64,000 nucleotides of DNA, taken from NCBI RefSeq assembly GCF_004138165.1, contig NZ_RYFF01000004.1:124001-188000 (forward strand), in the 5' to 3' direction. Below the pieces are notes generated by a model. It was given only the letters and a program-made list of their open reading frames with translations. It did no database searches and was not told the DNA's origin. This DNA is from Candidatus Chloroploca sp. Khr17 (GTDB lineage: Bacteria; Chloroflexota; Chloroflexia; Chloroflexales; Chloroflexaceae). A program made the translations under genes and the position numbers. This document shows, piece by piece, positions 14,984-49,101 of the stretch (its first letter is position 1; each line of letters opens with the position of its first letter).

Positions 14984-15138
14984 AGTTGTTTGCTCTCTAC
15001 GGCCAGCTAGGTTGGTTTTCGCGAGTCCAAGCGTGATGGCGGGATGCGTTGGGTCTCTATCGGCCTTCTTCGCTGGAACAAACCTGTGATGTGAGCTTGT
15101 TCCAGCGAAGGCAAGACTCCTTAACTTCCTGGTATTCT

Positions 15139-15203
15139 GGAGTGCCGGCTTCAGCCGGCTAAAGCCGGCACTCCCTTCGGCAGCAGAGCAGAAAACGTAC
15201 GTT
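15139..15203. repeat. dispersed palindromic repeat, copy 1
   Basis: A 12-bp perfect inverted repeat (15139-15150 and 15163-15174) is followed by a 23-nt tail (15181-15203). The same architecture and the same tail, with one base change, recur at 39603-39673. It lies in the 229-bp gap inside the T7SS operon, where it may act as a hairpin between the lipase and the second WXG gene. Confidence 0.7.
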
Positions 15204-28410: not shown

Positions 28411-28424
28411 AAACGCAAATGGCT

Positions 28425-28756
28425 GTGACGGGGACGAGTAGGATGATCAATCTCGCCTTCAGCGAGCCCGGGTTGGTGTGAGCCGGGCGGTTGAGCATCA
28501 TCTGAAGATCACCCCTGAGCTGGCAGGTGAACCGTGGTGTCACATCGATGCCCCCAGTAGCCCCGCCCGACCTTGTCCCTCGTTAGCGGGACAGAGCGTT
28601 GTTGGACGCTCGCCGAGCGCAGAATGTGAAGGCGTCGGGATGGTGGGTGAGTGCTTTGCTCGCTGCTCCTCTCCGTTCCTTCAACCTTCTGAACCGGGGT
28701 GGTACCGCGGGGCTTTTTCGCCTCGTCCCCTTTCTTGATGGGGGCGGGGTTTTTTG
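28425..28756 (+). promoter_or_regulatory. T-box riboswitch, isoleucine specifier, ending in a terminator
   Basis: The leader of ileS contains the T-box sequence TGGTACCGCG (28700-28709). Its UGGU bulge would pair with the ACCA end of uncharged tRNA-Ile. In stem I the loop-E motif AGTA (28437-28440) lies opposite GAAG followed by ATC (28509-28511), an isoleucine codon followed by a purine. A 10-bp stem with two G-T pairs (28721-28730 and 28740-28749) plus a T run (to 28756) is the terminator, and the T-box region is the alternative antiterminator. Uncharged tRNA-Ile should switch ileS on by read-through. Confidence 0.9.
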
Positions 28757-39602: not shown

Positions 39603-39673
39603 CCAAAGGGAGTGCCGGCGTTAGCCGGCTGAAGCCGACACTCCCTTTGGCAGCAGAGCAGAAAACTTACGTT
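39603..39673. repeat. dispersed palindromic repeat, copy 2
   Basis: Arms 39603-39619 and 39634-39650 (16 of 17) are followed by a 23-nt tail at 39651-39673 that equals the tail of the copy at 15181-15203 except for one base. A shorter remnant of the tail is seen at 35416-35426. Confidence 0.7.
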
Positions 39674-46640: not shown

Positions 46641-47729
46641 TTACACCGGCATTGACTCATTTGCCCCCGACACCGTCAAAGGCAGCGTTGCCTTAACTTT
46701 GCGCAGGCGGGTCACAGCATCGATCGCTGCATCGTGTACATTGGCATCTTCGTCTTCCATGGCTCGCAGCAAGGCATTGATCACGGGGGTCGTCGCAGCG
46801 GCCACGCCAAGCCTCCCAATGGCCCGAGCCGCTGCTTCACGCGCATAAGGGTCGCGATCGCTGATCAAATCGGTGAGCTTTTCGACCATTTCACGCGTTC
46901 CCGCAAGCTCACCCAGTTGGCCCAGGGCCAGCGCTGCGGCTGAGCGCACAAAGGGATCGGTATCACTCAGGCAGAGACTGAGGTGATCGATCAGTTGGGG
47001 GGAAGCAATCCGTTCACCCAGCAAGCCCAGCGTGCGCGCTGCAGCGTAACGAGTTTCGAGATCGCAATCATAGAGCGCCACCCGCGTCAAGGCTTTGACC
47101 AGCAGCGCAGGCGGAGTGCCGGCAAACAACCCCAGCATCCGTGCCGAAGCAGCCCGCACATGCGCGGCACTGTCATTCAGGCCATCATGCAATAAAACAA
47201 GATCGGCAGCCGTATACATACCTTCGCGCTGTCGCAGGCTGCGAATCGTTTCATACCGTGATTGCCAACCTGGATCATGAAGGAGATGCCGTAACTGATC
47301 CAGTTCGGTCGGCGGATACCCATCCAGTTCGGTCAGCAAAGTCACACGCAACCATTCATCACGGCTGCTATTTAACCGTTGCCGCGCCAGATGGATCACA
47401 TTCAAACCAACAATCAGTTGCTCAACTGCTGAGCGTAACTCTGCCTGCGAACGCAGTTCCCGCTCGATCAGGGTAGATAGTTGAAAGCGAATACGCCCCG
47501 CGCGCCGTACAATGATATCGGCACCAGGCCCCTGCACCATCTCTGCCAGGGTGAGCACGGCAGCAACTGGCTCACGCTGAAAAGCTTGGAGGAATGGTTC
47601 GAGCGTTCTTACAGCAAGATAACCAAGGACTGAGCTTGTTCCGGAGATCTGAATTTCTTGTTGTGGGTTACGCGTAAAGCTATGCATCTGTTCAGCAATA
47701 CACGTTCGCCATAACTCCTGGTCAAACAT
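46641..47729 (-). CDS. HEAT-repeat protein
   Basis: The 362-residue protein has an N-terminal region of unknown type (about residues 1-150) followed by about five HEAT or PBS-lyase-like helix pairs, for example VRAASARMLGLFAG, TRYAAARTLGLLGE, VRSAAALALGQLGE and AREAAARAIGRLGV. It is likely a protein-protein interaction scaffold in the cytoplasm. It lies 203 bp upstream of the STAS gene on the same strand and may be the input adaptor of the partner-switching module. The start at 47729 lacks a clear ribosome-binding site. Confidence 0.75.
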   Translation of the reverse strand: MFDQELWRTCIAEQMHSFTRNPQQEIQISGTSSVLGYLAVRTLEPFLQAFQREPVAAVLTLAEMVQGPGADIIVRRAGRIRFQLSTLIERELRSQAELRSAVEQLIVGLNVIHLARQRLNSSRDEWLRVTLLTELDGYPPTELDQLRHLLHDPGWQSRYETIRSLRQREGMYTAADLVLLHDGLNDSAAHVRAASARMLGLFAGTPPALLVKALTRVALYDCDLETRYAAARTLGLLGERIASPQLIDHLSLCLSDTDPFVRSAAALALGQLGELAGTREMVEKLTDLISDRDPYAREAAARAIGRLGVAAATTPVINALLRAMEDEDANVHDAAIDAVTRLRKVKATLPLTVSGANESMPV

Positions 47730-47784: not shown

Positions 47785-47895
47785 TTCTCCTGCCTTATCG
47801 GAATTATAGCACACCAGCCTACCGCAAAGAGGGCAAGGAAGCGTAGAAATTAAGTTTCTGCCAAACGACTTTACAGATACAGCAGTCCTGCTCGG

Positions 47896-48141
47896 GTTGT
47901 ATACAGGAGTGTCGGCTTGGGTTGTATACAGGAGTGCCGACTTATGGTCTTCCAGAAATGAATCCGATAGAGCCCACGAAGGTGGGCTTCGCTTCCCATA
48001 GCCGAGGGCTTATGGTCTTCCAGAAATGAATCCGGTCTAGCCCGCGCAGACGGGCTTCGCTTCCCATAGCCGAGGGCTTCAGCCCCACGGCATCGGGCGC
48101 ATACCGGATTATGTACTGGAACACCATTAGCCGGCACTCCT
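47896..48141. repeat. composite repeat with two 68-bp tandem units
   Basis: Two direct 68-bp copies (47942-48009 and 48010-48077) contain a hairpin each and differ mainly in the stem sequence. They are bracketed by a repeated motif GGGTTGTATACAGGAGTG and by GGAGTGCCGA/GCCGGCACTCC ends (47931-47940 and 48130-48139). The latter are the same ends as in the 15139 and 39603 repeats. The rest of 47730-48240 holds no gene beyond this and the operator. Confidence 0.75.
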
Positions 48142-48240
48142 ATAGGCACAAATCGTCTAGGATTGTTATACGTTAGGGTTGCGATAGAATGGTATGCTAA
48201 CAATCAGCATCTCGAGAAGTAGCAACATGCAAGGAACCTG

Positions 48241-49101
48241 ATGTCTAATCCATATCTACATCCCCAGCGCATTCGTGCCGCCCTACGCACCCTTGATCTC
48301 CGCCCCAGTCGTGGTATGGGCCAAAATTTTTTACTTGATGCCGACGCTCTGGCTACGATTGTCACGGCAGCCGAGTTGTCACCCACCGATCTTGTGGTCG
48401 AGGTTGGCCCTGGTCTGGGGGTGCTCACCTGGGAATTGACGCGACAGGCCGCCCATACCATCGCTATCGAACTCGACCGTCGCCTTGCGGCGCGGCTCAC
48501 CGAAGAGTTTGCCGGTCAACCGCTGACCATTGTGCAGGATGATGTGTTACGGGTTCGTCCAGGCGATCTATTGCCACCCAACACACACACGTCAGGCTAT
48601 AAACTGGTGGCGAATCTTCCCTATGCCATTACGTCAGCGGTGCTACGCCATTTTCTTGAAGCCGATCCTTGCCCAACGCTCTCGGTCGTCCTTGTTCAGT
48701 GGGAAGTGGCCCAACGCATTACCGCTGCCCCCGGTGATTTGAGCATCCTCGCACACTCGGTACAACTTTATGCCGAACCCACGATCGTCGCTCGCGTCCC
48801 TGCGAGCAGTTTTTTGCCAGCACCCGCCGTTGATTCCGCAGTGCTACGCCTGCGTCGTCGCCAGGAACTCGCCGTCACGGTTGCTGATGTGAACCGCCTC
48901 TTTCGGGTGATCAAGGCCGGTTTTCTGCACGGGCGTAAACAACTTGGCAATGCCCTGCCCGGCGGCCTCGCGGCAATGGGCTTCGATGTGCCCCGCGCGA
49001 CAGCGCTCGTCGCCCTCGCTGACGCTGGCATTGACCCCCAACGCCGCGCCGAAACCCTGACCCTCACTGAATGGGCCAGGCTTGATGCGCAGATCTGGTA
49101 A
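48241..49101 (+). CDS. rsmA: 16S rRNA dimethyladenosine transferase RsmA/KsgA
   Basis: The 286-residue enzyme has GQNFLLD (about residues 27-33), VVEVGPGLGVLT as SAM motif I, and NLPYAITSAVLRHF with the catalytic NLPY. It dimethylates two adjacent adenines near the 3' end of 16S rRNA during subunit assembly. AAGGAA lies 5 nt before the ATG. It is transcribed alone toward the PPOX-like gene 94 bp away. Confidence 0.95.
   Translation: MSNPYLHPQRIRAALRTLDLRPSRGMGQNFLLDADALATIVTAAELSPTDLVVEVGPGLGVLTWELTRQAAHTIAIELDRRLAARLTEEFAGQPLTIVQDDVLRVRPGDLLPPNTHTSGYKLVANLPYAITSAVLRHFLEADPCPTLSVVLVQWEVAQRITAAPGDLSILAHSVQLYAEPTIVARVPASSFLPAPAVDSAVLRLRRRQELAVTVADVNRLFRVIKAGFLHGRKQLGNALPGGLAAMGFDVPRATALVALADAGIDPQRRAETLTLTEWARLDAQIW

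Follow-up and report, generated by a model that had tools for sequence, protein, structure and literature searches.

Copies of a small palindromic repeat at the hairpin tips of other palindromes in a Candidatus Chloroploca genome

A nest of palindromes in an intergenic site

We analysed a stretch of 64,000 nucleotides from Candidatus Chloroploca sp. Khr17 (contig NZ_RYFF01000004.1, positions 124,001 to 188,000), and we refer to this whole stretch as the window. Within it, an intergenic site upstream of two divergent open reading frames (ORFs), which were named from reading their translations, holds one complete and one incomplete copy of a repeat that we call element A, together with palindromic sequence that surrounds them:

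46641-47729, minus strand: HEAT-repeat-like ORF
47885-47930, no strand assigned: left part of the outermost palindromic layer; congener G001 lacks this sequence at the corresponding place
47931-47943, plus strand: left arm of the REP-like palindrome that holds the nest, GGAGTGCCGACTT
47944-48011, plus strand: left 68 bp of the outer element A copy, which stops in the middle of a GGGCTT^CAGCCC hairpin and lacks the 48 bp that would follow on the right
47971-47988, plus strand: arm hairpin of unit 1, AGCCCACGAAGGTGGGCT, with 7/7 pairs
48012-48127, plus strand: complete 116-bp element A (ATGG...CCAT), at the hairpin tip of the outer copy
48039-48056, plus strand: arm hairpin of unit 2, AGCCCGCGCAGACGGGCT, with 6/7 pairs
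48069-48091, plus strand: second arm of the complete element A, GCCGAGGGCTTCAGCCCCACGGC, with a CT-TC-AG tip of the kind that hosts other copies
48128-48140, plus strand: right arm of the REP-like palindrome, TAGCCGGCACTCC
48141-48170, no strand assigned: right part of the outermost palindromic layer, which congener G001 lacks
48241-49101, plus strand: KsgA-like ORF

An earlier note on this DNA had described the site as two tandem units of 68 bp, and a repeat search of the window confirmed two 68-nt units with 90% identity, at 47941-48008 and 48009-48076. The boundary between these units is arbitrary, with CTT at both ends, and the boundaries given by element A are 47944-48011 and 48012-48079. 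Unit 2 is the first 68 nt of the complete element A that ends at 48127. The outer element A copy is interrupted in the middle of its GCCGAGGGCTT^CAGCCCCACGGC hairpin, and both copies sit in the tip of a third palindrome, a GGAGTGCC...GGCACTCC repeat. As the note had also proposed, the outer ends match repeats at approximately 15137-15175 and 39609-39645 of the window, where the GGAGTGCCGACTT/TAGCCGGCACTCC family stands empty; the family match holds, and the ends themselves (47931-47943 and 48128-48140) lie just outside the interval in which they had been placed. What appeared as a tandem of 68-bp units is thus three repeats nested one within another. A search of the genome with the 136 bp of both units, in which 40 of 123 candidates were scored, returned at least 41 matches, and a 17-nt seed had 80 genome matches at up to two mismatches against none for the reversed pattern, which indicates that the repetition of the unit is not due to chance.

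Element A is a dispersed 116-bp imperfect palindrome, with 41 full copies and 9 weaker ones in approximately 1.04 Mb of the window's genome; these stretches were picked around seed matches, and therefore are not a random sample of the genome. Using a profile made from full-length copies, we obtained 93 non-redundant matches, among which full copies are those of approximately 116 bp with more than 90 bits. The weaker copies, which also have both ends, comprise eight of 104 bp and one of 84 bp, and the 104-bp subfamily shares the ends of element A around an interior that is instead a AGACCTCACAGGTCT-type palindrome pair. The remaining profile matches are partial or distant. Above 50 bits there are 59 matches, 49 of which run end to end and 10 of which are partial, including five left halves in nested copies. 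Most full copies read ATGG...CCAT and a few have one base changed; these ends are common to the full copies, and the sequences outside them are variable. The terminal inverted repeats are ATGGTCTTCCAG and CTGNAANACCAT, with 89.6% of main-stem cells paired, and the 116-nt consensus folds into a stable, branched structure with a long main stem and two side hairpins. Less than half of the copy overlaps an ORF of at least 150 aa in 36 of the 41 full copies, compared with 343 of 2000 random windows. Element A is thus, by the seed matches and the ORF overlap, a high-copy, intergenic hairpin repeat. In the stretches examined, no gene was seen between its two ends, and no autonomous relative with element A ends was seen among the matches.

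A search with a 21-nt pattern gave seven stretches, three of which belong to Ca. Chloroploca asiatica. The other four, from Blastomonas, Sphingomonas, Winslowiella and a proteobacterial MAG, were set aside, for they match at most the first 44 of the 116 positions of element A, or none.

Other small repeats occur close to element A. At one locus (C96:66209-66448), a different palindromic insert, AATACTTTGCAAATAAG...CTTATTTGCAAAGTATT, splits an element A copy off-centre; it has a direct repeat of approximately 12 bp by eye and perhaps represents a second kind of small mobile repeat. A cloverleaf-like family with two hairpin arms, AACGGCTCGGCT...AGCCGAGCCGTT, was recognised by eye at L010, L016, L017 and other loci of the window's genome, often fused to element A or adjoining it.

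Dyad-centre junctions, empty sites and congener alleles

The two flanks of an element A copy tend to pair with each other. Pairing peaked only at offset 0, with 6.06 of 10 pairs, whereas the remaining offsets between -6 and +6 gave 2.04-2.98, and at least 6 of the first 8 flank positions paired in 26 of 50 copies, compared with 21 of 5000 random points. When right flanks were swapped between copies, the mean fell from 5.46 to 4.52 of 8 positions (1000 shuffles gave at most 4.98) and, over 12 positions, from 6.68 to 5.68 (shuffle maximum 6.52), which indicates that the near flanks of one copy match each other. Over 16 and 20 positions, the observed means of 7.64 and 8.80 lay below the shuffled maxima of 8.02 and 9.26. 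The joined 10+10-nt flanks exist elsewhere as empty palindromes for 30 of the 50 copies at up to two mismatches and for 15 exactly; in a control with 3 nt dropped per side, an empty counterpart was found for 1 of 50 and an exact one for none. Examples of restored sites are GCCGGCTT^TAGCCGGC, GCCGACTG^AAGTCGGC, GCCGGCTA^AAGCCGGC and GGGCTT^CAGCCC. No base is gained or lost in the restored empty sites, and target duplication was not seen in them or at locus L062 of G002. The insertion tip reads CTN^NAG in 34 of the 50 copies, and left and right junctions differ (CTT^TAG, CTG^AAG, CTA^AAG).

Empty and occupied forms of one palindrome could be compared within the genome through 26 arm pairs GTGCCGRCT...AGYCGGCAC within 600 nt, whose contents were judged by eye. 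In twelve pairs the arms are 2, 12, 22 or 28 nt apart and element A is absent; in 11 pairs they are 118-186 nt apart with element A between them, and three pairs enclose longer composites. Several unrelated palindromes are nested. The search of the 1.04 Mb left 20 of the 50 copies without an empty counterpart, and the flanks of some copies hardly pair (e.g., C87:30074 and C8:90587). Such copies may represent decayed sites, recombined sites or exceptions.

We also compared the alleles of two congeners. At the window locus, the outer palindrome is present in G002 with its 36-bp repeat empty (GGAGTGCCGGCTTTAGCCGGCTAAAGCCGGCACTCC), and neither layer is present in G001. The window's two arms are together 10 nt short of G002's 36-bp repeat, which suggests that the site before insertion was a shorter variant or that 10 nt were lost; a precise loss of element A in G002 is a possible alternative to an empty site. 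Among 16 further loci sought in the congeners, 8 were comparable (15 alleles, with only the G002 allele at C84:23851), 1 was rearranged and 7 lacked a flank. A profile search (E <= 1e-3) found element A in none of the 17 congener alleles at the 9 comparable loci, which makes the element a young or a mobile one in this lineage. As far as the partial alignments show, the congeners lack the outer palindrome too at 8 of these 9 loci, and with it the entire composite, so only one locus gives a direct view of stepwise growth.

Element A also has copies of itself as host. Six of the 41 full copies have another copy's left half as the sequence next to them on the left (C22, C23, C35, C84:1494, C136:9099 and C115, which is the window). 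A clean insertion would leave two left and two right halves. Two right halves are present in C84 and C136, one in C23, C35 and the window, and three in C22, and the counts that depart from two suggest that a half was lost or gained, probably through recombination between direct repeats. The same junction, GGGCTT^ATGG, was found in another family of the order (genomes G064 and G060), in 5 of 20 stretches taken around matches (L180, L182, L184, L190 and L191). One joint in L182 is short of a T, and L191 has four left halves in a row. The uneven counts of halves and the L191 array indicate that slippage or recombination acts on these arrays.

Stem variation, mechanism and rival explanations

The units differ in their arm hairpins as the earlier note had described, with one A-T pair of AGCCCACGAAGGTGGGCT replaced by G-C in AGCCCGCGCAGACGGGCT and one C-G pair replaced by a C/A mismatch. 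From this paired change the note had proposed that the structure matters, and had named covariation among copies as the check and many uncompensated stem changes as the result that would speak against it. We aligned 41 of the 50 both-ended copies, 40 of them distinct, leaving out the 9 weaker-scoring ones (eight of 104 bp and one of 84 bp). Over the distinct copies, the pair in question is G-C in 23, A-T in 16 and unpaired in 1, and the stem is thus kept through a paired change at this position. A two-sided change was found at 1 of 39 pairs, compared with an average of 2.6 such pairs in shuffles, and within the 21-pair main stem, pairs 6/113, 17/101 and 14/104 are unpaired in 26, 14 and 13 of the 40 copies. 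The fraction of cells paired was 91.7% against 91.2% in shuffles (reached by 5 of 500), cells with two-sided change numbered 16 against 8.3 (0 of 500) and all lie at one pair, and the covariation score was 0.045 against 0.035 (1 of 500).

That the hairpins act as a functional RNA with its structure under selection would fit the one arm pair in which both bases have changed with pairing intact (16 of 40 distinct copies), the two-sided cells and covariation score above nearly all shuffles, and the stable, branched fold of the consensus. The single two-sided pair among 39, which is below the shuffled mean, the several main-stem pairs that change without compensation, the absence of the whole locus from a congener and an Rfam scan of the site in which no family reached threshold argue against an RNA. 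The check thus largely returned the uncompensated changes that the note had set against its own proposal, and we consider a functional RNA very improbable; the RNA interpretation is not supported. Furthermore, both arm variants (CGCGCAGGCG and CACGAAGGTG) occur in hairpins outside element A matches above 50 bits, with 9 G-C, 13 A-T and 3 mismatched hairpins outside and 20, 15 and 1 inside, so the variants look like two alleles of a shared hairpin and not like stepwise compensation. If whole hairpins were exchanged, or imperfect palindromes were corrected as the DNA replicates, the kept pair would be explained without an RNA role, and the hairpin shape most likely matters as DNA, both as target and as product of transposition. 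The case is also a caution against assuming that RNA function must lie behind a compensated stem change in a repeat.

Two Rfam matches stand apart from this argument. The best sub-threshold match at the site is CRISPR-DR28 on the arm hairpins, with 34.9 bits (threshold 35) at 48038-48061 (-) and 26 bits at 47970-47993 (-). A CRISPR array was rejected, given that the match is the arm hairpin, that it has two copies only and that no array was seen; arm hairpins of this likeness could mislead CRISPR annotation. Elsewhere in the window, a T-box leader at 28416-28733 (+) scores 94.7 bits, with an Rfam gathering threshold of 93.

We consider it probable that element A is a non-autonomous mobile palindrome that inserts into hairpin tips, with an enzyme, perhaps IS200-like Y1, that acts in trans. 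This reading builds on what was directly observed: element A with its ends, junctions at dyad centres, empty sites in the same genome, and differences in presence between congeners. Element A, at 116 bp or as the 104-bp subfamily, would insert at the symmetry centre of other palindromes with no target bases duplicated, and its target would be a hairpin tip with mostly CT-NN-AG at the top, where the DNA is presumably single-stranded or extruded. Because element A carries a tip of this type itself, copies would insert into copies, which would give rise to the two 68-bp "tandem" units; at the window, one right half would since have been lost by recombination. Inserts would bring new tips, and palindromes could therefore grow recursively inside palindromes, copies within copies included. 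Recursive, tip-targeted insertion of a bacterial palindromic element is well supported as a real case, and element A may work like a REP or MITE that is moved in trans by a single-strand transposase.

Y1 HUH transposases of the IS200/TnpA-REP kind supply the best candidate for the enzyme, as a lead only. Three Y1_Tnp matches were found in the window's genome, by eye two IS200/IS605-like and one RAYT-like. The RAYT-like gene (stretch L090 of contig C70, positions 497-862 of the stretch, minus strand) is flanked by arrays of the AGACCTCACAGGTCT palindrome, and its protein scores 63.5 bits against the NCBIfam REP-associated transposase, below the cut-off of 80. This same palindrome is the interior of the 104-bp element A subfamily. 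In G002, a gene for a 144-aa Y1 protein (L062:9572-10006) lies approximately 295 bp from a full element A; the protein matches NCBIfam IS200/IS605 at 60.3 bits (cut-off 55) and PF01797, and has HVH and Y...Q motifs by eye. The host site of that element A copy, GCGCCTG^AAGGCGC, belongs to a 30-nt repeat of which two further copies, both empty, lie next to it. A search of 82 genomes from the order returned relatives of the G002 protein in 22 (E <= 1e-6). At the same cut-off, this subfamily has no match in G001 or in the window's genome, even though the latter carries many element A copies, and the candidate is therefore unproven.

We examined 44 of 115 Y1 matches, picked mostly from genomes with element A. 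The subfamily was first picked by eye and then confirmed by similarity, with 22 places at E below 1e-18, of which 17 were examined; one gene with an in-frame stop (L133) was missed in the first sorting, and the counts of 17 subfamily and 27 other loci come from a later one. Strict palindromes, with a stem of at least 7, a free central dinucleotide and a position no more than 260 nt from the Y1 locus, have a CT-NN-AG tip in 17 of 18 cases beside the subfamily (at 9 of 17 loci; 16 distinct, with differing stems), compared with 0 of 3 at the 27 other Y1 loci, 37 of 133 in the stretches of the window's genome and 6 of 81 in a first-order simulation. Looser hairpins, with a stem of at least 8 and a loop of 2-6, number 25 at 11 of 16 subfamily loci, or 3.2 per kb; among the other Y1 loci, a set of 25 has 10 such hairpins, at 5 loci, and a set of 3 has 1, and the background has 53 in 122,200 bases. 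By this definition, the tip is present in 17 of the 25 subfamily hairpins and absent in 8. The tip is kept while the stems differ, which suggests the hairpin tip as the feature that the subfamily may recognise. A broader claim, that a lineage of IS200-like Y1 transposases in this order recognises hairpins by the CT-NN-AG tip and not by a foot tetranucleotide and joins palindromic DNA into the tip centre, is conceivable and at present rather doubtful. Across the 82 genomes, among the matches listed, element A and the Y1 gene (E below 1e-18) occur together in 12, element A alone in 25, the gene alone in 7 and neither in 38, a weak association (Fisher p = 0.11) in which the 37 genomes counted as positive for element A are a generous count, since many were matched by the arm region only.

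Three other explanations of the nested structure were weighed against tip-targeted transposition. A plain tandem duplication, in which replication slipped between microhomologies (CTT or stem), would need no move of one element into another, and it could account for the nested copies with two left halves and one right (C35, C115 and C23, 3 of the 6) and for the four left halves of L191. It would not account for the common junction, in which the element's first base stands at the hairpin tip in all six cases and in the five stretches from other genomes, nor for the use of the same junction position by element A in unrelated palindromes, nor for the two left halves that accompany two right halves in C136 and C84 and three in C22; we regard it as unlikely. 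Capture of hairpin fragments by repair, after host nucleases cut the tips of extruded cruciforms, would dispense with a transposase altogether. It is consistent with insertion at tips without duplication and with the nesting of several unrelated palindromes. Random capture should leave ragged ends, and the 49 of 59 matches that are end to end, with half of the 10 partial ones being left halves in nested copies, therefore count against it, which makes it slightly less credible still than slippage.

An unrelated transposase that favours REPs, such as one of the IS110 kind known to enter REP palindromes, could also move element A. The IS110 mechanism leaves the same core dinucleotide at both junctions, and this disagrees with the differing left and right junctions of element A. 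IS110 matches were found in 34 of the 82 genomes. In favour of such an enzyme are the 2 IS110-type matches in the window's genome, one of them above cut-off, the 39 in G064, and the description, in the part of PMC1525189 consulted, of REPs as targets of IS elements from five families. On balance, we give this explanation about the same low standing as slippage, and tip-targeted transposition remains our preferred reading. The 39 IS110-family matches of G064, a single contig of 5,801,598 bases, have 332-aa frames, and this genome is also rich in element A.

Relation to known repeats and mobile elements

A search by titles and abstract openings found no description of element A, and the available part of the Chloroploca genome paper (PMC6180586) has no occurrence of "palindrom" or "transpos". 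Like the GTAG- and CGTC-tagged REPs treated in the part of PMC3733652 consulted, element A consists of dispersed hairpins, and some outer sites here begin with CCGTC. According to the same excerpt, palindromes of A. variabilis, H. neapolitanus and T. roseum can enclose REPs or REP dimers. Unlike GTAG REPs and REPINs, element A has a length of 116 bp and no GT[AG]G foot, with ATGG at the junction, and unlike a CGTC REP it has no CGTC tag at its own ends. The outer repeats begin mostly with GGAG or CCGTC; some of the outer palindromes carry the CGTC tag, and the second arm of element A contains CCGTC or CCGTG on its opposite strand. If a tip-recognising Y1 lineage does exist, CGTC-like REPs would gain the transposase that they reportedly lacked.

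The terminal inverted repeats of element A resemble those of a MITE derived from a DDE transposon, which differs in having a target-site duplication; none was seen in the joined flanks of 30 of 50 copies. Non-autonomous elements derived from IS200/IS605 are alike in leaving no target duplication. Without a GTAG or CGTC foot tag, and without the target duplication of a classical MITE, element A is filed as neither REP nor MITE. Very small mobile repeats of cyanobacteria have reportedly been described by Elhai and others. IS1397, IS621 and similar elements insert specifically within REP palindromes, according to the section of PMC1525189 consulted; they encode their own transposase, whereas element A is too short to do so and shows no target duplication. 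The nearest described enzymes may be the TnpA-Y1 class 3, or REPtrons, which the extract of PMC6006769 used here presents as IS200-like Y1 genes with flanking atypical hairpins, which have no GT[AG]G and recur across the genome. By that description the Y1 subfamily found here, with its IS200-like gene and atypical repeated hairpins, can be likened to class 3; the extract draws class 3 mainly from Planctomycetes, Acidobacteria and Proteobacteria and does not describe tip targeting.

The closest parallel in structure comes from Volvox, whose mitochondrial and plastid DNA contains short palindromic repeats with palindromes within palindromes (PMC2670323, as excerpted). The TTTA/TAAA loops there are like the CT-TT-AG and CT-AA-AG tips of element A sites. 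Volvox differs in that the repeats lie in organelle DNA, which is AT-rich in the mtDNA, and the excerpt gives no dyad-centre test, congener alleles or linked transposase. The mechanism of nested palindromes is left open in that excerpt. Element A provides a bacterial case, with empty sites and congener alleles, in which composite palindromes would arise via insertion at hairpin tips, and with it a concrete candidate enzyme and target that can now be tested.
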